Source: Pocillopora verrucosa
Lineage: Eukaryota > Cnidaria > Anthozoa > Scleractinia > Pocilloporidae
Reading direction: 5' to 3'
Assembly: GCF_036669915.1 (NCBI RefSeq)
Contig: NC_089317.1
Span: forward strand, 8,582,911 to 8,646,910
Length of the DNA: 64,000 nucleotides
The translations under genes were made by a program, and so were the position numbers. The stretch's first letter is position 1, and the number at the start of each line of letters is the position of its first letter. This document shows positions 9,796-60,412 of the stretch, piece by piece. The notes under the pieces were generated by a model that ran no database searches, had not been told where the DNA came from, and saw nothing but the letters and a program-made list of their open reading frames with translations.

Positions 9796-9832
9796 TGTTT
9801 TCGTCAACCCTCGTTGTTCATCATAATTAATC

Positions 9833-10660
9833 ATGAACGACAGCAATGCAACCTCAAAGTTTCCCAAACAACACTCCGACGATGGACTCAAGACCTTGAG
9901 CATAGCAATATTTCTGGCTAATGGACTCGTGCTTGTCTTGTTTTACCGATGTAGTCGTCTTCACACCTCTTCTAACTATGTGCTTCTCAGCCTGGCAATT
10001 TGTGACTTCAGTACTGGCGTTATCGCTCTTCCATACTTCATTGTTTATAATTTTGGCATTTTGCCGTCACAATTAAGTATTGGGGTACACATCTCGCATA
10101 CATTACTAGCTACATCAGGTGCTTATCACATACTCTTTATTACTGGGCTCAAGTACATGGCAACGGTCAGTCCACTAAAACACTATTTGGTGACTAAGAG
10201 CTTGGTTTTGAAAATTGTGCTCGGTGTTTGGATCACTTCGACTGCTTTTGCTATCATTCCTTTTGTTCTGTATGATGCTGAGGTATCTACGCTTTGGGAC
10301 GTTATTTATACTGCAGTTTGCTTCGTTGCAGTTTCCCTTTTCCCGTACATGGCAGCGACCACCTTTGATTCAGAATAAGAACTCACGGGAACAGAAGAAA
10401 AGCGAAAGTGACAGGAAGTGTATCTTGGTTTTCGCAGGCATGGCGATCATATTTGCCTGCTGTTGGTTCCCTTATTTTATCGTCATGCTATTATTCCAAA
10501 TAGGATTAAAAGATTTGCATAGCGTCATTGAAGCTTTTGTGGTCATTCGATATTGGCCAACCCTCTTCTCTACACGTTTTTCAAACGCGACTTCTTGTCC
10601 GCCTTTCAGAATCTGTTGCAAAACAAGGAAAACGTCCGTTCTTCTTCTCAAAAATTAATC
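9833..10660 (+). pseudogene. Class A GPCR, copy A, multiply deleted
   Basis: Starts MNDSNATS like its two paralogues in the window. Compared with copy B it lacks 18 bp in TM1 (in frame), 47 bp at the end of TM5 (frameshift), and 11 bp in TM7 that removes part of the segment before NPxxY. Everything after about 10,655 is gone through a deletion of about 640 bp, so the C-tail is lost. Frame 1 stops at 10,378 after TM5. The remaining CWFPY of TM6 lies in another frame (10,390-10,658). It cannot make a seven-helix receptor. Sequence outside the deletions is very close to copy B, so the decay looks recent. Confidence 0.92.
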
Positions 10661-13600: not shown

Positions 13601-14832
13601 CCTCATAAAGGAGACGCGATAAATATTGCCCGAAAGATCCGTATTTGTTTGTTGCGAAACATTACGTTATGGAATAGGACTTTGCCAAGAATCTGTATCT
13701 GAGCATGCGTTAACTTTCAATTCTGTCGCCTTTTGGAAATCTTTCCCGCAGTGTTTTCTTTCGGTTGACCTCTTTTTCAGGCGTAGAAGACCTATGAATA
13801 TTACGGATACAGTTGCTGAAAACCCTAGATTCCATAACATAAAAACTGTATTGTGTTACACTGCCTTAACACACCCCTTTAGATAATAATCGTGCGATCG
13901 TATGGAGCTGCCCCGTTTGTTTTGCACGTTGACACTTTTATACTTGCGCTATGTTCGCACCCAGATGTCGCGCGGTACAAAAACCCTTTGGAGCCTTCTT
14001 AAGTTGAATTTCCAACTCTCAGGCGCCAGTTATTTCTTCTCTATCGGACATTTATTTCCAGAACAACTCATTTTTAAAGTCCATGAATATTAACTGACTA
14101 TAATACAAACTTCCCGAAGGCAGAAAGGTCTTGAACAGTTCTTAAGGCAAGGTAATGAACTTTATTTTTCGTTCTCAGTTTTGATCATGACTTGACAGTT
14201 TCAACTGTTACAACCCAACAATGATTAAATAATATTATCTCGTAATCTAGAAGGTGGCGAATCTTAGGGAAGAAAAACATGAAGTTAATTTATTTCAGAG
14301 CAGCATTTATACGCCGAAACCGTGATTTTCATATGTGCGATTGAAAAGTTCATGTCGAATTTTGACACTGAGATTTCAAAGAGTAAGCTAATCATTCCAA
14401 AACTGTGTTGAAATTGGTCAAAATTTGCAGTTTGCCAGTGACAAAGCTATGCTTTGCTCCTCTTTTCTAACTGATATCGAAACGGTAAATAATTAGGAAA
14501 TTAGGAGAAAATTTTCAAACCAAAATCCCATATTACACGCCGCGGCATTATTAAGATCTATTCACTTCTCAGCAGCCGAAGAGACAAAATTGCGCATCAA
14601 GAGTTTATTTTTTTTAATATACCACTCTTCGGTATATTGACAGAAATAAACAATTTTTTTGTTTTCTAAATGGTATAAACTAAAAAAAAAATAACCTACT
14701 TCAACATCGATAAAAGTGTAGGATATTCATCTCGCCGCTTTACAGCTCGGTAAATATCTGCATCTACTCACCTCCACCTCGGTAAATGATTGTGAAACAG
14801 TGGAGATGATCACTATATGGTTTTTAGAGCGT
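10661..14832. repeat. Tandem spacer unit 1, non-coding
   Basis: First of three related spacer units. A recognisable landmark, AACCTTTA...TCTAGCC...ATATTTGATT, lies at about 10,979 here, 16,260 in unit 2 and 21,152 in unit 3. Copy B repeats it at about 53,826 and 62,031. Small open frames (for example 11,461-11,712) recur between units but differ by frameshifts and unconstrained substitutions, so no gene is called. Confidence 0.75.
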
Positions 14833-24226: not shown

Positions 24227-24249
24227 TTAAAGGAGAACTGAAGCCAAAA
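24227..24249. repeat. Kolobok left TSD and TIR
   Basis: TTAA followed by AGGAGAACTGAAGCCAAA. The right partner ends at 29,467. Confidence 0.9.
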
Positions 24250-24509
24250 ATTGAGTTAATTTCTTTCGATAGCCAAAGTGACGAAATTCTCGATTTCAGG
24301 CGTTATTTGTGCTAAATGTGTCTTGCCTTGGAGAAATATTTCTTTAAATTTTGTATTTTCGCACTGTTTCGGCTTTCAATCCGTGGGCACCAATTTTAAA
24401 TCAGCGGTCTTCCAAATGAGCCTGTGACGTATGTTATGGGGATCACTTTAGAACGTGTTATCGTTCGGCTAAATTATAATACAAATTGCTTCTTCGTCGA
24501 CCCTTCGTC

Positions 24510-25320
24510 ATGAGCGGAATAGAACCATTTCAGTTCGAACCAGTATATCAGCCTGGAGAAGAACCACCTCAGGAAGAGAGTGTAGAACAGGAGGTAGAAG
24601 CCCACGAAGAAGACAATACTTCGAGGATGGGAAACACCGAATGGTGTTTGTGCGGCGCTTGTGCGCTTATGCCGGTGGCAAATGAATGTTACTGCTGCCA
24701 AGAACTAGAGGAGCTTAATCAAAAGTTCGACAATTCAGGTTTGTACTTATTATGTGATTATTCTCACGAGTATTTTGTTTGAAGCGGCCGCTTCTTTGCT
24801 AAGAGTGACAAAAGGTGGACAATTGCAAACTCGATCTTAGTTGTAATTGTAATTACAATTACAAGGTCTGATGGATGAAAATTATTGAAACAGTGAGGGA
24901 AAGAAAATGTTAAGACTTTTTTCTTTTTTTGGGGTATTGATAGGTGTTAGATGTATAACAGAACATCCGAAATTTGGCATTGTATGCTTGGACAGGGATG
25001 TTTTGAGCACGGCATTGGTTGCAATCCACAATGCGCGGCTCAATCCAATTCCCGACCCTATCGTCAACAGGTAAACTGTCTTTTTCTTTCTTATTTTGTA
25101 CGCGTAATTAAGTCAATCGCTTTTGTGACTTTATATCCTCTTGTTCTTTAGAACTTGGCGTTTGGCAGCCTACAGACAATTTACTTGGTAGGCACATGGG
25201 GTATTAGGAAAAAACCGGCGGAGAATCGTGCCTGCATGCGTCGTCACGGCCATACGTAAAACATTTCCTGAAGAGAGTGGTAATTACGTGGGGTTTCGAG
25301 AAGCAGATCTGGAACTTTGA
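24510..25320 (+). pseudogene. P2X7 C-terminal (ballast) zinc-domain-like protein
   Basis: Three exons read in phase: 24,510-24,738, 24,944-25,070 and 25,152-25,320, with GT/AG junctions (CAG|GTAAAC after exon 2, TTTAG before exon 3). The product would be about 174 residues. An acidic N-tail is followed by 'EWCLCGACALM' (Cys46, 48, 51), 'ECYCCQE' (Cys60, 62, 63), 'CITEHPKFGIVCL' (Cys80, 91), 'WRLAAYRQFTW', 'RRRIVPACVVTAIRKTFPEE' and 'YVGF'. This is the order seen in the intracellular zinc-binding ballast domain of vertebrate P2X7 receptors and in stand-alone invertebrate relatives. There are no membrane segments. An in-frame TAG at 25,189-25,191, right after 'RQFTW', breaks this copy; the frame stays open on both sides. 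The function in the transposon is unknown. DNA- or chromatin-associated and accessory transposition roles are only guesses. Confidence 0.86.
24841..24864. repeat. 24-bp perfect palindrome in intron 1
   Basis: TTGTAATTGTAA followed directly by its reverse complement TTACAATTACAA. It lies in intron 1 of the P2X7-ballast-like gene. Confidence 0.9.
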
Positions 25321-25602
25321 ACTTTATCCGTAATGCCCTTTAATAATGATTAGTAACATATTCTTTGCGTGTATAACATCAGACGCTCTTCTTTCCTAAT
25401 GTTACGGTTTATTTCTAAAATTTGCGTGAAATATACAATTACTTATCGAGGATATGAATTACTAACACATTTCTGCATCCACATTGCCAGGGATAGCTGC
25501 GTGGCCTGAATGAAATAAACCTCAAACCTAACTTTGATTGCTTTTTGCTACGATGATTGCTTTTATTTTCATTTGATTGTGTTATTGACAAAGTTGTTGT
25601 AT
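25321..25602. other. Kolobok region between convergent genes
   Basis: No coding signal. An AATAAA at about 25,514 is suitably placed as a polyadenylation signal for the plus-strand gene. Confidence 0.5.
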
Positions 25603-27541
25603 TTAATTGTTCGAAAATCTCGAAGTATGATTAGCAATGACATCTGCTTTAGGAGGCCGGGGTTTGCTGGCAATGTTTTCAGGAATGTGTGGTGCTGTGA
25701 CTATTGCACTCCTCTCTTGTGGTTTTAAGCATTTTCCCTCTACAATGGCATTAAGGATTGGCTTGAGATGATAATTGGTTGTCTTCTCAAATATGGGCTT
25801 TGCCACCCATTCTTTTGTATTTTTCGGAAACACTACCTGGTATTGCAGCTCCCCTTGGTTGGCACCCCTGGATACAGTGGCTTGTTGTCTACCAGTGTTG
25901 GCATTATGGTCTATGGCTGCCAACTGAGTTCGAGCAACCATGCCATTACAAGAGAAGTGCTGCCGTTTGGGTGCATATTTGGTCTGCACACTATGGTACA
26001 TCTCTAAATTCCCAGTATGACAACTTAGTGTTAGTTGCTGAATGTCCTGCAACAGATTTTTATCGAATACAACCTCCTTCAATGCATTATGAGCAGAGGA
26101 GCCAGGCCTAAGCCACCTTTTAGTTCTTGCGATAGCTGGAGGGATTGGTTGGCGGGCACATTCCTCATACAGGTCAGCTGAATCCCAGGAGTGGATATTG
26201 GCAGTGTGATAGACAATGGATATCCACTTCTCTCTCAACATCTCCTTGTCTCCCCCACATGTTTTGGCACACCACCAAGATGGATCTGATCCAGAGAGAG
26301 AGATCAGCACATTCTTTCTTCTTTGCTTTTTCAGTTAACTTTTTAGTTATACTCTTGGAAAGGTGCCACACATCAAATTAATGATCAACTTCAGGGAAAT
26401 TTCTTTTCATGTCAGCCCTAATGCCCACATGACGGTCAGTTGCAACGACCATAATTTTCCCCCCTTTTTCATAGATGTTTTCCATACTGCGTTTAAAACC
26501 CTCTCTTTCCATGGCATTGCTATTATTTACTTCACTGACCTGAACAACCTTTAAGTCAACAATCTTATCAGTTTTCTGATCAATCATGGTATATGTCCCA
26601 TATTTTGCATTATGGCCAGGACTGTCACAACGCCCATCCCCTGAAAGCCACAGATCTGGCCCCCCTAGCTCAGAAAAAGTGGAATTTTGTTCTTTAAGCC
26701 AGAACTCATTGATTACAAGTAATAAGTACTTGTTTTGAATATTATAAAATGTTTTCGCACTGAAAATTTTCAAGTTTAAGATATCTGCCAAAGATGCTTC
26801 TTTTGTAAAGGTAGAGCCACTGAGCTAAATACATGATGACAGCAACAAATTTCCAGCTGCCATCCCCTCAAGCATTGGCTGGCTTTGCCAGGAGTACTTA
26901 TGATTATTCATACATTCTAGGGTGACAAATAATTGGCTTCCTTGTGTGGATTGGTTCCTCTTAATCACAACTGCACCACACTCAGGACAGTACTTAAACA
27001 ATTTAAATAGCTCTTGTTTAAATACAATGTATTTGGTATCATCCTGTGGCTTTTCGCATTTTGTTTCTCCTTGGTGTTCGTTGTCTGATCCTGACAAGTT
27101 TTAATCATCTGAATCTTCCTGTTTTGTGGGAAGGCAGATGTCATCTTTTCTTGGAGAGACTTCTGGGGAAGCAGCAGCTTCAGTTGCTTCTTCCTTGTTA
27201 TCTTCAATTTCAGGAAGGAATACCTCTTCAGTCTGGGTGCTGCTTTCTGAAACATCAACCTCGACTTGGGTGTCAGTAGATTTCATCATTAAATGGAGAC
27301 CACGATTGACTTGGATCCCAAAATCCACACCCTTGTTTGGCAAATTCACCTGCACTGCTTGTGACTCAACCAACGTGCTTTTAGGCCCTAAATAATGTGG
27401 GAATGGATATGATGGGCTGTCTGAGGTTGATGTACTTGCTCCACAATTCACTACATCAACAGGTGTAGGCTGTTCTAAAGCTGAAGCTGCATGTTCTTCG
27501 ATTCTACAACTAGATTGTGCAGTTACAGAGGCTATATACTA
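25603..27541 (-). pseudogene. Kolobok transposase, main DDE exon, degenerate
   Basis: Read from 27,541 down to 25,603. The exon opens after a pyrimidine-rich tract ending TTATAG. An acidic linker follows, then a zinc knuckle ('YCPECGAVV' ... 'CMNNHKYSW'). Next is the RNase-H-like core, with 'LSGDGRCDSPGHNAKYG' (probable first Asp) and 'VVATDRHVGIRADMK' (probable second Asp). The C-part has 'WWCAKTCGGD', 'SCHTGNLEMYHS' and 'KYAPKRQHFSCNGM'. In-frame stops occur at about 27,101-27,103 (TAA after EDSDD), about 26,825-26,827 (TAG after LLSSCI) and about 26,378-26,380 (TAA after PEVDH). A frameshift lies near 26,285-26,305. The blocks are otherwise collinear, so this is an eroded transposase. The catalytic assignment is inferred from position, not from alignment. 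Confidence 0.85.
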
Positions 27542-28254
27542 TAACAGAAAAAATATTAACTCTGTTATGGTATGGGTTAGTGACCCTTTGAGAGAATGAA
27601 AAATGTAGGTATGGGGGATAAACTATGCTACTATATGGTTACACAATGATTCAATGGGGTTTTCTTGGAAAATATAACACCTGACCCTGCCCTCCTTTGG
27701 TTGAAAGCCTGCACTGGTTTCAACTTAGAATTTCCAGTTGTATTAACTTTTTATTCACATAGAAGGAAAGAAGGTTAAAAGAATTCATTATTTAAAGAAT
27801 AATATCCACAACTTATATCTATAGTCTAATTGTACTAATTTTGTTCACCTGCTAGTTAACAAGGGACGGGTATAATGTTCCTAGAATTAGAGAATAATCA
27901 CTTTATTCTGAAACAATTTAATTTTGTTTACCTACTGGTCAAACATGTTCAGGAGAGACGAAGTACAAAGATGACTCAGAGTTAAAAAAACATCAAACTA
28001 GAAGGAATTCCATGGCAGGATATTGTTTTGCTTAAGGAGAAGAAATACTTTTCTGTGAAAATTTAATGTTTCTCAATGGAACCTATTCGGGTGATATCCC
28101 TTAAGATATAAATTGTTATTGCCCCCAAACTGCATTCACCTTTCAATTTTTTTTTTATCAATCATGCATAAATGACGAGCAGCTTCAAGAGTTTGCAACA
28201 ACCCAAGCTTTGCAACAACCCAACCCAGTTACAATAGAGTAATTCGCGATTCAC
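27542..28254. other. Presumed intron of the Kolobok transposase
   Basis: AT-rich with stops in all frames. It lies between the THAP exon and the main exon of the transposase. Confidence 0.5.
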
Positions 28255-28590
28255 TTACTTCTTTCCTGACTTCTCTTCTGAACGTTTCTCCGATGAAAGT
28301 CGAGGTCTTTTTGATGGTCTCCGATGCGAAAAAACCTTGGGTATTGCACCTGGTTTTAGCGTAGATCTGGGTTTCAAACCAAGAATTTCTGCTTTCAAGT
28401 CTCGTTCGTAGCAGTCAGGTGTAAAATGTTCTGAGCACAGCCTGGAGTTTTTCGAAACGACCAGATCCGCTCGTGAGATCTTTGCCAGCCACTGTGATCG
28501 TAGAGCTTCATCCCTCGGAAAGCAATGGTAGGATATACCAGTTGTGTACCTCGAGTCGTTGTTACAATCGAACGCCGCGCAGAATACCAT
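28255..28590 (-). pseudogene. THAP zinc-finger exon of the Kolobok transposase
   Basis: ATG at 28,588-28,590, reading MVFCAAFDCNND. The C2CH zinc ligands fit Cys4, Cys9, Cys52 and His55 ('LCSEHF'). The THAP signature residues F24-P25, W34 and the AIP block at about 82-84 are in place, followed by a basic stretch ('HRRPSKRPRLSSEKR'). THAP domains bind transposon ends in Kolobok and P elements. A GTAAGT donor-like sequence lies at about 28,254-28,259, and the next block starts at 27,541, suggesting an intron of about 0.7 kb. The simple junction does not keep frame, so another small exon, a different splice site or decay must be involved. Confidence 0.85.
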
Positions 28591-29447
28591 TTTTAAGCTC
28601 GAAAGTAATCGAAGTAAATATTGCAACGGGGGCTACTCAACCGCCAAGAACAGATAGAAGAATAAACTCAAACAACTCGGGCTTCCGTATTTGTACATCC
28701 TTTCTTGCGTAAGCCAAGAATTTAACCCATTATAGAGAACCTATAAACCAAAGTTCAACACGAATTTCAAAATTTTATTTCCTTTTGGACTTCTTGCGAC
28801 ATTGTTAACAGCGTGCGTTATCGTCCATGCCGTTGCAAAATCCAGACTTCAAACGCGTTGCAAACTAATGGTAAAAAAGGTAAATAACAAAATATGGGAA
28901 ACAGAATGGAAGATGAAATATCTTAAATTACCAGTATATAAGAAAAATTAAAGTGGAGACCCTATTCCGAAAACATCGAGGTCAATCCAAGTATAAAAGA
29001 TGCGCCGCACATGATCTGGACACGTAACTACGTCAGAGACACAGGGTTACGAAAGCCACAATATTTTTCTCTTACACAATGCCTGGATAGAAGACCAATT
29101 TTCTAATATGAGAGGCGCTTGAATCATTTTTTGCTTCACCTTGCACAATCTTTACTCCTGGAAAACCACAAATTCTTTCCCGCGAGCAAGCCGCAGTCCT
29201 GAATTCAACTTGCCTGTTTACCTGTCTTGCCGTGTTTACCTTCATCCCCATAACCTACGTCACACGCTACAAAGAGAACCGCTGACATTCGTGTTCTGAG
29301 CCGACGTACCACAGTCAAATATCGAGCCAATTATCACTAAAAACCTTTCGTTTTCTGGATGAAAACTGTCGTTCGAGGGAAAAAAAATGACGGAAATTTG
29401 TTCCATCATACATAAATGTACGATACATGGTGAAAAAAATTACATGA
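28591..29447. other. Kolobok right sub-terminal region
   Basis: No coding block recognised. It presumably holds the transposase promoter and 5' leader. Confidence 0.5.
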
Positions 29448-29471
29448 ATTTGGACTTCAGTTCTCCTTTAA
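29448..29471. repeat. Kolobok right TIR and TSD
   Basis: TTTGGACTTCAGTTCTCCT followed by TTAA. It differs from the left repeat by one substitution and one inserted base. Confidence 0.9.
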
Positions 29472-38528: not shown

Positions 38529-38565
38529 TGTTTTCGTCATCCCATGCTATTCATCGTAATTAATC

Positions 38566-39624
38566 ATGAATGACAGCAATGCAACCTCAAAGTTTCCTCA
38601 ACAACACTCCGGCTTTGGACTCAAGACCTTGAGCAAACTTCTTCCAGTTGCCATAGTAATGGTTCTGGCTAATGGACTCGTGTTTGTCTTGTTTTACCGA
38701 TGTCGTCGACTTCGCACCTCTTCTAACTACGTGCTTCTCAGTTTGGCAATTTGTGACTTCAGTACTGGCGCTATCGCTATTCCATACTTCATTGTTTATA
38801 GTTTTGGCATTTTTCCGCCACAAATGTATTATGGGGTTTACGCCTCGCATACATTACTATCTATTTCAGGTGCTTTTCACATACTCTTTATTACTGGGCT
38901 CAAGTACATGGCAACTGTCAGTCCATTAAAACACCACGTGGTGACCAAGAGCTTGGTTTTGAAAATTGTGCTCGGCGTTTGGATCACTTCTACTGTTTTT
39001 GCCATCATTCCTGTCGTTTTGCATATTGCCGAAGCATCTGCACGTTGGGACGTTATTCATACTGCAGTTTGCCTTGTTATGGTTTTCCTTTTCCCGTACA
39101 TATTTATGATTTATGCATACATAGCCATGTTCAGTGCAATTACTAAAAGGCAGCGACCATCGTTGATTCTGAATAAAAACTCGCGGGAGCAGAAGAAAAA
39201 AAAAAGTGACAGGAAGTGTATCTTGGTTTTCGCAGCCATGGCGTCCATATTTGCCTGCTGTTGGTTCCCTTATTTTATCGTCATGCTATTAGTCAATATA
39301 AGACTAAAAGTTCTGTTTAGTGTCTTTGAAGCTGTTATCGTCATTCGATATATCACATCTTTGGCCAATCCTCTTCTCTACACGTTTTTCAAACGCGACT
39401 TCTGGTCCGCTTTTCAAAATCTGTTGCAAAACAAGGGAAAGGTCAGTTCTACTTCTCAAAAAAGTCAAACAGGGTCTCTTAGTCTCACGAGCCGACTAAG
39501 ATCCAGATCAAGCGTCAACAGCAGAAGGTTAACGACGCTCGAAGGAGAAGGACAAGAACCGAGAATGATTCCCAATAGCAACGTGACCTTTGGGGAAGAG
39601 ACATTTCTTACAAGCCGTGTTTAA
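38566..39624 (+). CDS. Rhodopsin-like (class A) G-protein-coupled receptor, intact
   Basis: 352 residues in a single coding exon, seven predicted helices, plasma membrane. The N-tail has sequons at Asn2 and Asn5. TM1 about 22-44 (ANGLV 35-39), TM2 about 54-78 (LAICD 60-64), TM3 about 93-115, TM4 about 128-152 (Trp139), TM5 about 165-188 (Pro177), TM6 about 218-242 (CWFPY 232-236), TM7 about 252-275 (NPLLY 268-272), then helix 8 (FKRDFWSAF). The DRY motif reads LKY (112-114). No cysteine is seen at the usual top-of-TM3 and second-loop positions, so the standard extracellular disulfide is absent. The C-tail is rich in Ser and Arg ('RLRSRSSVNSRR'), a likely phosphorylation region. The ATG is the only one fitting the conserved MNDSNAT start of all three copies. 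The ligand is unknown; this is a cnidarian-type orphan receptor. It is the only undamaged coding gene I see here. Confidence 0.95.
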   Translation: MNDSNATSKFPQQHSGFGLKTLSKLLPVAIVMVLANGLVFVLFYRCRRLRTSSNYVLLSLAICDFSTGAIAIPYFIVYSFGIFPPQMYYGVYASHTLLSISGAFHILFITGLKYMATVSPLKHHVVTKSLVLKIVLGVWITSTVFAIIPVVLHIAEASARWDVIHTAVCLVMVFLFPYIFMIYAYIAMFSAITKRQRPSLILNKNSREQKKKKSDRKCILVFAAMASIFACCWFPYFIVMLLVNIRLKVLFSVFEAVIVIRYITSLANPLLYTFFKRDFWSAFQNLLQNKGKVSSTSQKSQTGSLSLTSRLRSRSSVNSRRLTTLEGEGQEPRMIPNSNVTFGEETFLTSRV

Positions 39625-51912: not shown

Positions 51913-51949
51913 TGTTTTCATCAACCCTCGTTGTTCATCATAATTAATC

Positions 51950-53008
51950 ATGAACGACAGCAATGCAACCTTAAAGTTACCTAAACAACACTCCGACGAT
52001 GGACTCAAGACCTTGAGCAAACTTCTTCCAATTGCCATAGCAATATTTCTGGCTAATGGACTCGTGTTTGTCTTGTTTTACCGATGTAGTCGTCTTCGCA
52101 CCTCTTGTAACTGTGTGCTTCTCGGCCTGGCAATTTGTGACTTCAGTGCTGGCGTTATCGCTATTCCATACTTCATTGTTTATAATTTTGGCATTTTGCC
52201 ATTACAATTAAGTATTGGGGTACACATCTCGCATACATTACTAGCTGCATCAGGTGCTTATCACATACTCTTTATTACTGGGCTCAAGTACATGGCAACG
52301 GTCAGTCCACTGAAACACTATTTGGTGACTAAGAGCTTGGTTTTGAAAATTGTGCTCGGCGTTTGGATCACTTCGACTGCTTTTGCTATCATTCCTTTTG
52401 TTCTGTATGATGCTGAGGTATCTACGCGTTGGGACGTTACTTATACTGCAGTTTGCTTCGTTGCAGTTTCCCTTTTCCCGTACATATTTATGATTTATGC
52501 ATACATGGCCATGTTCAGTGCAATTACTTAAAGGCAGCGACCACCTTTGATTCAGAATAAGAACTCACGGGAACAGAAGAAAAGCGAAAGTGACAGGAAG
52601 TGCATCTTGGTTTTCGCAGCCATGGCGATCATATTTGCCTGCTGTTGGTTCCTTTATTTTATCGTCATGCTATTATTCCAAATAGGATTAAAATATTTGC
52701 TTAGCGTCATTGAAGCTTTTGTGGTCATTCGATATATCACATCTTTGGCCAACCCTCTTCTCTACACTTTTTTCAAACGCGACTTCTGGTCCGCCTTTCA
52801 GAATCTGTTGCAAAACAAGGAAAACGTCCGTTCTTCTTCTCAAAAAGGTCAAACGGGGTCTCTTAATCTCACGAGCCGATTAAGATCCAGATCAAGCATC
52901 AACAACAGAAGGTTGACGATTCTCGAAGAAGAAGGACAAGAACCAAGAATGATTCGCGATAGGAACATGACCTTTAGTGACGAGACATTCCATACAAGTT
53001 GTGTTTAA
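51950..53008 (+). pseudogene. Class A GPCR, copy B, one nonsense codon
   Basis: Same length as the intact paralogue (1,059 bases) and collinear with no indel. The only lesion I see is TAA at 52,529-52,531, where the paralogue at 38,566 has AAA (Lys194). It lies at the cytoplasmic end of TM5 and is one base change. The frame continues unbroken through TM6 (CCWFLYF, where the paralogue has CCWFPYF, so the conserved proline is also changed), NPLLY and the C-tail to 53,008. LKY again replaces DRY. It could be a young pseudogene, a segregating null allele or a base-call error. The loss of the TM6 proline hints at relaxed constraint. Confidence 0.93.
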
Positions 53009-56000: not shown

Positions 56001-57607
56001 CGACGAAAAGCTTCAAATATAACGTGCTCCAATAGCTACATTTTTTTTTTTAATTTTTGGAAATGGTTTTGCACATAAAACTGATTCAACGGAATTGGTA
56101 TTACATATAACATGTTATGTTCTGGGAAGTCTTATAAAGACGAAACTATCTCTGTCATGAAGAACTTAAAGAGGCTCTAGAGGGTTAAAAAGCTAAAAGC
56201 CATCAAAGGGCGATAAGCAAGGTTCGGACCATCGTTTTTTGTAGTAAATATTATCAATCGAATTTTTGTTACTGAGCTGAGGCTCAACGATGGGAGGCGC
56301 TCGCCAGTGATAATTTAGCTTTGCCTTTGATTTTCTTCAATTTGCTCCGGTAAAATCTCTAAACATTTTCATAATTTGTTATATTTGTCTTGCCGATCAT
56401 TTAAAAGCCGAAAACAATTGGGGTTGCAGTGGCAGTTTCCTCGCTATTTGCAATTTCGTGTTCTATCCCTCTATCTTAAATTTGGAATTTTTTGAAAACA
56501 GACAGTATGAAGGGCACAAGTATGTTTAACAATCTAGCAAATCTTAGGAAATTCCACATAAAGGAGACGCGATATAGATTGCTCGAAAGATCCGTATTTG
56601 TTTGTTGCGAAACATTATGTTATGGAATAGGACTTTGCCAAGAATCTGTATCTGAGCATGCGTTAACTTTCAATTCTGTCGCCTTTTGGAAATCTTTCCC
56701 GCGGTGTTTTCTTTCGGTTTACCTCTTTTTCAGGCGTAGAGGACCTATGAATATCACGGATACAGTTGCTGGAAACCCTAGATTCCATGACATAAAAACT
56801 GCATTGTGTTACACTGCTTTAACACACCCCTTTAGATAATAATCGTGCGATCGTAAGGAGCCGCCCTGTTTGTTTGCACGTTGACACTTTCATACTTGCG
56901 CTATGTTCGCACCCAGATGTCGCGCGGTACAAAAACCCTATGGAGCCTCCTTAAGTCGAATTTCCAACTCTCAGGCGCCAATTATTTCTTCTCTATCGGA
57001 CATTTATTTCCAGAACAACTCATTTTTAACGTCCATGATTATTAACTGACTATAATACAAACTTCCCGAAGGCAGAAAGGTCTTGTACAGTTCTTAAGGC
57101 AAGGTAATGAACTCCATTTTTCGTTCTCAGTTTTGATCATGACTTGACAGTTTCAACGGTTACAACCCAACAATGATTAAAACAATATTATCTCGTAATC
57201 TAGAAGGTAGCGAATCTTAGGGAAGAAAAATATGAAGTTGATTTATTTCAGAGCAGCATTTATACGCCGAAACCATAATTTTCATATCTGCGATTGAAAA
57301 GTTCATGTCGAATTTTGACACTGAGATTTCAAAGAGTAAGCTAATCATTCCAAAACTGTGTTGAAATTGGTCAACATTTGCAGTTTGCCAGTGACAAAGC
57401 TATGCTTTGCTCCTCTTTTCCAACTGATATCGAAACGGTAAATTATTGGGAAATTAGGAGAAAATTTTCTAACTAAAATCCCAAATTACACCTCGCGGCA
57501 TTATCAAGATCTATTCACTTCCCAGCGGCCGAAGAGACAAAATTGCGCATCAAGAGTTTAATTTCTTTAACATACCACTCATCGGTATATTGACAGAAAT
57601 AAACTAT
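53009..57607. repeat. Tandem spacer unit of copy B, non-coding
   Basis: Matches 10,660-14,650 of copy A, plus about 640 bases at its start that copy A has deleted. An AATAAA at 53,225-53,230 may be the polyadenylation signal of the GPCR. A short block (CGCCATTAAGAG...) occurs twice, at 53,079 and 53,716. Confidence 0.7.
55344..55395. mobile_element. Perfect palindrome flanked by a 10-bp duplication
   Basis: ATTTGACCAT at 55,344-55,353 and again at 55,386-55,395 flank a perfect palindrome with 17-base arms, CATAGTTAGTAGAGGAG (55,351-55,367) and its complement (55,369-55,385), centred on one A. Copy A at about 12,534 has a single ATTTGACCAT and no palindrome. This looks like an insertion with target duplication, made of little more than two inverted termini. 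Confidence 0.88.
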
Positions 57608-60412
57608 TCTTTATGAGTCGTTATACCGCTCCACCAATATCAATCCCGAAAATTTGAAAAAAAAATGGCCTTTTTTTATTCCAGAAAACGTAACCGCACT
57701 AAGTGAAGAAGAAAAAAATTCTTGTGAAGGATTGGTAAAGGTAGAAGAATGTCAAAATGCGCTCAAAGACTTTGACAATAACAAATCCCCGGGCAATGAT
57801 GGTCTGCCTGCTGAATTTTACCGATTCTTTTGGCCCGACATCTGCCATGATCTGGTAGCGAGCTACAACTCTGCTTCTCAACAAGTCAAAGACGGGGAAT
57901 AATCTCGCTTATCCCAAAAAAATCTAAGGATAAAACTATTCTGGAAAATCTAAGGCCCATCTCACTTCTCAACGTCGACTACAAGATTCTCACTAAGGTT
58001 ATAGCCAGGCGAATCGAAAATGTCTTGCCAACTTTAATAAACCCTGATCAAACCGGTTATGTTAAAGGCCGCTACATTGGTGAAAATATAAGGCTAATTT
58101 ATGACCTAATACATTACACAGATAAAACAAATCAAAAAGGTATTGCCATTTTCTTGGACTTCAAAAAAGCGTTTGATTCCATTGAATGGAACTATCTCTT
58201 AGAAACATTGCAGCTCTTCAACTTCGGCCACGACATCCAAAATTGGATAAAAATTTTTTATAATAATGTTACTAACTGTGTTCTGAATAACGATCATGTC
58301 TCAACTTTTTTCTCCCTACAGCGGGGAGTCAGGCAAGGTTGCCCTTTCTCTGGCGTTCTCTTCGTTCTCGGCATAGAACTCCTCTCTAAAGCCATAAAAA
58401 ATGATCCTACTATTAAAGGTATCCAAGTCAACAAGCATGAGCTTAAAATAAGTCAATATGCCGACGACACAACAGTATTTGTTCGTGACCTCGATTCCGT
58501 CGTGAGTCTATTAAAGGTTTTAAATGAGTTTAAAGAACTTTCTGGCCTAGAAATAAACACAACTAAAACCGAAGCAATGTGGTTAGGCGAATGGAAAGAC
58601 AGAACCGATGAACCCTTTGGTTTTAAATGGCCAAAAGAACCTGTCAATGCCCTTGGTGTCTATTTTTCTCATAACCAAGAAAGTGCTAATAGACTGAACT
58701 TCGGTGAAAAAATACGTAATCTTGAGAAAACGCTAATCACTTGGCAACGGAGAAATCTAACTCTTTATGGAAAGATAAACATAGTTAAAACACTTGGGAT
58801 ATCTAAGTTAATTTACTCAGCCTCCGTGCTCTCTGTTCCAGATCACTATATCCAAGAAATAAATAAGCTAACTTTCAACTTTATTTGGGCAGGAAAACCC
58901 CCTTAAAATAAAAAGAAACACCATAATTGGAGAAAAGAAAGATGACAGTTTGAAAATGTGCGATTTCAATATCATGGAAAAGCACTCAAAATAGCTTGGG
59001 TCAACAGAATTCAAGATGACTCACAAGCCTCCTGGAAAATTATTCCTAACCAGCTAGCTCTTACACAAACATGGTGGTCTTGCTTTTCTAACAAAATGCA
59101 ACTTTACACCAAGCACACTAGACCTCGATGATAAGCTTCATGCATTTTACAAAAAAAGTGTTAGATTATTGGTGCGAGTTTAAAATCTCAACGGGCATCG
59201 ATTCCAAAATAAATCCTAAAAACGAAATAGTGTGGAATAACAGAAAAATTCTTATAGGAAAAAAACCTGTCTTTTACCAAACTTGGTATGACGCCGGTAT
59301 TACTAAGATAAGCGACATTTTAAACCAAAATCAGAAATTTTTGAAATGGCATGAATTTGTCACAAAATTTAATTTAAATGTGCCTTTCACCACATACTAT
59401 GGCTTGGTCAACGCAATCCCAAAAGACTGGAAAGCTATTCTTACAAACCCTATTCCAAACGTCACACACGCGAACACTACTGTAAACAGCCTAAGAACCA
59501 GCTCTATTTACTCTTCTCTTTTAAACACCGTCTTTGTTCCTCCCACTGCCGAAACCAAAATTCTACGCCACGGATTTACAAAAACTACCATCAAGAACGT
59601 TTATCTTATGCCATTTAAAGTAACAAACGAAGTTAAAATAATAATGTTTCAGTATAAAGTGATTCATAACGTGCTTCCAACTCGCGCCACTCTTTACCGA
59701 GACGGCATTTCAGAGAGCCCCTTATGCAACCTATGCAATACAGAAAAACAAACTTTGCATCACCTATTAATAAACTGCACACTAATACTCTACTTCTGGA
59801 TTCTGTTTCAAGACTGGTGGCACCAAAAAACAAATGAAACAATAACGTTATCCACAAGTCATATACTCTATGGCTGGCATTATAGGACAAAGCATTGGCA
59901 AGTCCTAAATTATTGCCTATTGTTAGCCAAATATCACATTTTCTGCACAAGCCTTTGCGGAGACATCTTAGATTTTCAAATCTTCCTACTGTTCATCACT
60001 GGAAAACTTGAAATCCTAAAAGAGATCGCGACCGCAAAAAAAGAACTTCCGAAATTTTATCGCACGTGGGCTTTTTTACTTTAATTTTTCATACTGCTGT
60101 TGTTTTTAGGTTAGACTTATACTTAACTTCATTTTTGAGACCTGTATGTTTACTTGTGATTGTCTTTTAATTGAAAAGAACTTTGTAAACACGCCAACCG
60201 TAAATTTAATTAATGTTAATTGTATTGTAATACATGTATCGTAATGTAGTGTATGCATAATTTCTGTAAGTATAAGTATCAGTAGTGTTAGTAGCAAGTA
60301 CAATGTAAGTGTAATTAATGCTGTAAGTAGTGTAAGTGATCGTCTTGTAAATAAAATTGTTTAAAAAAAAACAAAAAAACAACAACAAAAAAAACAACCA
60401 AAAAAAAAAAAA
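57608..60412 (+). mobile_element. L1/Tx1-type LINE, 5'-truncated
   Basis: Absent from the matching site in copy A (about 14,652). It starts inside the RT region, so ORF1 and the endonuclease are missing. It ends in an A-rich tail (60,361-60,412), as expected for target-primed insertion. A 3' region with repeated GTAAGT-like motifs (60,265-60,345) precedes the tail. Any target duplication is blurred by the T-rich target. Confidence 0.88.
57660..60084 (+). pseudogene. LINE ORF2 reverse transcriptase and C-terminal region, broken
   Basis: Four collinear segments. 57,660-57,902 has 'NNKSPGNDGLPAEFY'. About 57,893-58,906 has 'LRPISLLN', motif A 'IFLDFKKAFDS', motif B 'RGVRQGCPFSGVLF' and motif C 'QYADDTTVF' with the catalytic Asp pair. 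A decayed stretch covers 58,907-59,127. 59,128-60,084 has the C-terminal region with 'CNLCNTEKQTLHHLLINC', a CxxC...H...C knuckle. Frameshifts lie near 57,890 and 58,895 (an extra T after the C run), with more around 58,930-59,120. The motif set fits the L1/Tx1 group of LINEs. The active-site residues survive, but the frame does not. Confidence 0.88.

Follow-up and report, generated by a model that had tools for sequence, protein, structure and literature searches.

The 64,000-nt stretch of Pocillopora verrucosa DNA analysed here, hereafter the window, contains at positions 24,231-29,467 a DNA transposon of 5,237 bp that we regard, with a probability of about 0.85, as a Kolobok element of the Kol0 type, now decayed, encoding a transposase and, in convergent orientation, the small protein KolX. 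According to Kojima & Bao 2022 (PMC9587614), the KolX proteins of Kol0 Koloboks have the ballast fold and are similar to residues 476-595 of the P2X7 receptor, and P2X7 originated when a P2X4-like gene and KolX fused. The same paper considers Nanor a probable domesticated KolX and reports Kol0, a lineage for which it cites Kapitonov & Jurka, from cnidarians. The domain had been described across Metazoa, with corals among its carriers, by Rump et al. 2020 (PMC7016195), in whose main text the string 'transpos' is absent. No description of the coral family or its ends was found in the searchable literature (Repbase lay outside the search), and no mention of KolX was found in passages of the Xenopus Kolobok paper (PMC6004289). 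Within that literature, the case for deriving the P2X7 tail from a transposon is made only in two short sections of PMC9587614. What is new here is a concrete, recently active two-gene family in a coral; the link between KolX and P2X7 was published in 2022.

Ends and insertion site of the element

The boundaries of the element and the corresponding empty sites are the following:

24227..24230, no strand: left TTAA target-site duplication, a single TTAA at the empty paralogous sites
24231..24243, plus strand: left terminal inverted repeat AGGAGAACTGAAG
29455..29467, minus strand: right terminal inverted repeat, the complement of AGGAGAACTGAAG
29468..29471, no strand: right TTAA target-site duplication
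14083..14169, plus strand: paralogous empty site with one TTAA, 78/87 bases identical across the junction
57035..57121, plus strand: second paralogous empty site with one TTAA, 76/87 bases identical across the junction

The 13-bp inverted ends are perfect, each is found once within the 64-kb window, and imperfect similarity extends from the left end to about position 24,265. The terminal AG...CT follows the 5'-RR ... YY-3' rule given for Koloboks (PMC9587614), and the duplicated TTAA is the target site typical of the superfamily. How often such ends arise by chance was assessed with letter-shuffles of four loci (L012, L015, L021 and L022, 200 each): a TTAA-bounded 12-bp pair without mismatch appeared in 0/200 shuffles of each locus, and with ≤1 mismatch in 1/200 for L012 and 0/200 for each of the other three. 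Since the insertion sits in a repeated stretch, the window carries its own control in the form of the two empty paralogous sites, which indicate that the 5,237-bp block, with KolX and transposase both between its ends, most likely entered one repeat copy at TTAA as one unit.

The KolX gene

KolX is encoded by three exons:

24510..24738, plus strand: exon 1, acidic N-terminus and first cysteine clusters
24944..25070, plus strand: exon 2, CITEHP block
25152..25320, plus strand: exon 3, AYRQFTW ... IVPACVV ... GF block, with an in-frame TAG inside

Both introns are of the GT/AG type, and the joined exons give 174 codons and a terminal stop; a single TAG interrupts the frame earlier, within exon 3. 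An earlier note, made from the letters of the window, had read these exons as a P2X7-ballast-like zinc-domain gene and had proposed a Pfam search with the joined translation, and this search bore the reading out. With X placed at the TAG codon, residues 21-168 matched P2RX7_C (PF20478) with 73.8 bits (E 2.2e-20) against a cut-off of 23.5, and four distinct P2X7 chains were matched in PDB (E 1.4e-8 to 2.4e-7). P2RX7_C was the sole Pfam match above cut-off and no P2X channel domain was found in the 174-aa protein, so that the coral KolX stands alone, whereas P2X7 has a channel domain. A gene product of Pocillopora meandrina that is likewise 174 aa long (P0001) is 98% identical to the window KolX over its full length, and proteins of Montipora, Porites and the anemone Actinostola are 61-72% identical to the KolX of this family. 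An AlphaFold model of P0001 built with 23 sequences was of moderate confidence (mean pLDDT 68.7, pTM 0.64); in Foldseek, 12/12 of its matches at E <= 0.001 were P2X7 cryo-EM entries, and the best match to anything else had an E value of 2.8.

The coral KolX shares with the P2X7 ballast domain (PF20478; PDB 6u9v, 8tr5, 9e3m) the zinc-cysteine clusters, the AYR block, the predicted fold and a C-terminus of the type PxC ... IRxxFP ... GF. In ten diverse KolX rows, eight of the cysteines do not vary. The gene structures differ in that two introns lie within the domain of the coral KolX, whereas the P2X7 domain is described as lying in exon 13 (PMC7016195). Nanor and the stand-alone ZCD proteins described in that paper resemble the coral KolX as short proteins with the same domain. 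Profile, sequence and predicted-fold matches agree in identifying a KolX with the ballast fold, and it is on this content that the putative assignment to Kol0 is based. The further likeness to the Kol0 Koloboks described in PMC9587614 lies in the TTAA, the 5'-RR...YY-3' ends and the combination of a DDE transposase with a ballast-fold KolX.

The transposase

Two exons on the opposite strand are predicted to be joined as parts of one transposase:

25603..27538, minus strand: DDE transposase exon with DVWH signature, interrupted by three stops and a frameshift
28255..28632, minus strand: THAP DNA-binding exon of the transposase (PF05485 E 1.8e-17)

A THAP domain is usual in Kolobok transposases, as described in the Xenopus paper (PMC6004289), and the one found here agrees with the claim of the earlier note that the ballast gene lies wholly between perfect Kolobok ends beside a THAP transposase. 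The DDE frame of the window has stops at 27,101, 26,825 and 26,378 and a frameshift between about 26,204 and 26,331. Together with the exon-3 stop in KolX, these interruptions mean that the window copy is dead. In an uninterrupted copy elsewhere in the genome, the corresponding 649-aa exon showed a weak similarity to Pfam Mutator (E 1.2e-5, 24.8 bits, below the cut-off of 26.5) and contained DVWH, which fits the C/DxxH signature given for the superfamily in PMC9587614; its catalytic acidic residues were assigned by eye.

The opposite strands of transposase and accessory gene are also a feature of KolobokP, a member of the same superfamily for which long direct repeats at the termini and, mostly, a His-Me finger nuclease are described (PMC9587614). 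Unlike KolobokP, the coral element gave no match to a His-Me finger nuclease among the six pieces scanned with Pfam, and no long direct repeats, the longest one listed between 24,000 and 29,700 being 28 bp.

Copies in the Pocillopora verrucosa genome

We followed the proposal to look for further TTAA-flanked elements with the same ends. In the 353-Mb genome, TTAARGGAGAACTGAAG yielded 21 matches (one for the reversed control), corresponding to nine convergent pairs and three single ends. KolX with its splice sites was present in all nine copies having both ends; it was uninterrupted in 6/9, and in five of the nine both KolX and the 649-aa transposase exon were uninterrupted. The spread of the ballast gene by transposition, as suggested in the earlier note, is borne out by these counts, and the opposite finding, a both-ended copy lacking the gene, did not occur; KolX was missing from the truncated copy L027, which has kept THAP and transposase and has lost the left end as well. 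Two other truncated copies consist of the right end and part of the THAP exon (L028) and of the left end plus KolX residues 1-19 (L029).

The five uninterrupted copies differ pairwise by 0.0019-0.0033 (0.19-0.33%), and by 0-5 of 525 positions within KolX. KolX and transposase have multiplied together recently elsewhere in the genome, and the family has, to judge from this near identity, recently been active in the coral. The divergence of the window copy from these five (2.4-2.6%) and its interruptions mark it as dead and as older than its relatives of the recent burst. Between the KolX codons of the window and those of L012, six differences are synonymous and two change an amino acid, apart from the stop; small as these numbers are, they lean towards past selection on the KolX protein. 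Because near-identical copies with read-through KolX and transposase exons are available, a role of KolX in transposition is testable.

Separately, a transposase fragment of this family at G000:C1:13017853-13018044 lies inside a reported open frame that is 5,103 aa long and contains a single TAG; it may have inserted into, or next to, a coding repeat of very great length.

A second family, with ends AGGGGAAGTACG, gave nine matches in the genome, corresponding to three pairs and three single ends. Its ends differ from those of family 1 and the transposases of the two families are about 50% identical, and the convergent layout is the same, with KolX in 3/3 both-ended copies. The copy of 4,917 bp contains THAP, a transposase frame of 666 aa and a KolX in which Tyr replaces one of the eight cysteines that are otherwise invariant. 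The other two (L017:4451-6837 and L019:4816-7202) are derivatives of 2,387 bp each, differing at 15/2,387 positions, in which an internal deletion removed the catalytic part of the transposase and left THAP and KolX, with the frame of KolX exon 1 broken. Owing to the Tyr substitution and the exon-1 frame breaks, none of the three both-ended family 2 copies has a clean KolX. The 4,917-bp copy lies on contig C9, and its KolX agrees with the Pocillopora verrucosa protein P0053, named 'P2X purinoceptor 7-like', so that P0053 is, on this agreement, the KolX of a transposon; names of this kind are therefore not to be taken as indicating purinergic receptors.

When a stand-alone host KolX was sought, at least 16 places with PF20478 were found, a lower bound, with the decayed family-1 copies L025 and L026 outside the set. 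Ten lie inside perfect-ended TTAA elements, and transposase pieces are near three more (L009, L018, L021). Around L020, L022 and L023, which carry stops, tblastn found no transposase pieces; the ends around L022 form an imperfect pair bounded by TTAA. A third KolX type of the genome, at L021:5766-6182, has its zinc domain in one exon and is adjoined by THAP and transposase pieces.

Possible role of KolX

In the mechanism that we propose, the THAP-DDE transposase would bind the ends and cut and paste the element at TTAA, and KolX, a small protein predicted to coordinate zinc and to have the P2X7 ballast fold, would act in trans via protein-protein contacts. Its zinc-cysteine core would provide the structure and the acidic N-terminus a variable tail. 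With KolX present in two families and in 12/12 elements having both ends, intact or not, an accessory role is the most economical explanation, and we infer, at roughly even odds, that KolX is a helper needed by the element for transposition.

Alternatively, KolX could be a host gene that was taken up as a passenger and plays no part in transposition. We consider this improbable. Its presence in every both-ended copy, including those of two families that share the convergent layout despite different ends and only about half-identical transposases, speaks against a passenger, as do the 61-72% identity to proteins of Montipora, Porites and Actinostola and the description of KolX for Kol0 as a lineage by Kojima & Bao (PMC9587614). 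On the other side, the function of KolX is so far putative, the truncated copy L027 has none, and in the two transposase relatives sampled (L030 and L031, both fragmentary) no adjoining KolX match better than E 0.10 was detected, so that some related Koloboks may dispense with KolX, or these copies have decayed.

A more specific function of KolX would be that of the cofactor-sensing half of a two-protein transposase, with a regulatory guanine-nucleotide site supplied in trans to the THAP-DDE transposase, analogous to the one attributed in cis to the P element transposase. If this were true, the nucleotide-binding ballast of P2X7 would derive from a switch of transposition. We regard this as a long shot. 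The GDP contacts of rat P2X7 are given as R546, H547, R574, R578 and K583 (PMC7016195), and in the alignment of the PDB match the window KolX keeps two of the five (R546 and R578), with L, V and E at H547, R574 and K583; the case for a guanine-nucleotide role is weak for the window family. KolX proteins were further divided into classes on the basis of a 15-bit gap in HMM scores, applied to two P2X7 tails and 149 proteins, many of them unnamed metagenome proteins and some of them fragments, one of the underlying searches contributing the best 120 of 282 matches; this gave 90 members of class A (including the two tails), 54 of class B and seven at first in neither. Residue pairs were extracted by regular expression, and among the matches listed the Arg-His pair (R546-H547) occurs in 42/54 class B proteins and Arg-Leu is the commonest pair in the class of the window KolX. 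The nucleotide reading may still apply, given that R546-H547 is kept in 42 of the 54 members of one class.

That the gene is a ballast gene domesticated by the host and fixed in place, with transposon ends around it by coincidence or nested insertion, is hardly credible, even though its relatives nanor and P2X7 have been proposed as domesticated in vertebrates (PMC9587614): the paralogous sites in the window lack the entire 5.2 kb, KolX lies between the same ends at eight further places, and a stop interrupts the gene in the window. A chance cysteine pattern unrelated to P2X7 can practically be dismissed, being contradicted by the profile, sequence and fold matches, with nothing found in its favour.

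Origin of the P2X7 tail

Under the Kol0 reading of the element, the P2X7 receptor tail would represent a later capture of a KolX-like protein by a vertebrate host, an inference published before and consistent with our data. The central idea of the earlier note, a mobile element as the vehicle of such a capture, is sound and was already in print, as the relevant sections of Kojima & Bao 2022 show (PMC9587614). For the donor, which may or may not have been this element or a member of its clade, three alternative placements of P2X7 were not rejected: P2X7 held with class B, with fish KolX and with class A gave p-AU values of 0.258, 0.098 and 0.389, respectively. In a tree of 32 rows, the mouse and rat P2X7 tails were placed beside tick sequences on a very long branch (2.36). 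The profile scores of the two tails favour class A (82.3 and 83.4 vs 38.9 and 38.2 bits), whereas the Arg-His pair favours class B. As indicators of a donor lineage, these four lines of evidence were mutually conflicting or indecisive. Intron structure was dropped as a clue to the P2X7 donor because it is too variable among KolX types to decide: introns lie inside the domain in families 1 and 2, the domain of L021 is in one exon, and L022 seemingly has one intron.

Surroundings in the window

The window also contains a large duplicated array, with repeats over about 10-24 kb and about 52-64 kb. Three related ORFs are located at 9,827-10,378, 38,560-39,624 and 51,944-52,531, the second of which encodes a rhodopsin-family GPCR (7tm_1 E 3.6e-26). 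At 57,851-60,084, a reverse transcriptase ORF (RVT_1 E 3.3e-42) and, after it, an ORF carrying a zf-RVT domain probably belong to a non-LTR retrotransposon.
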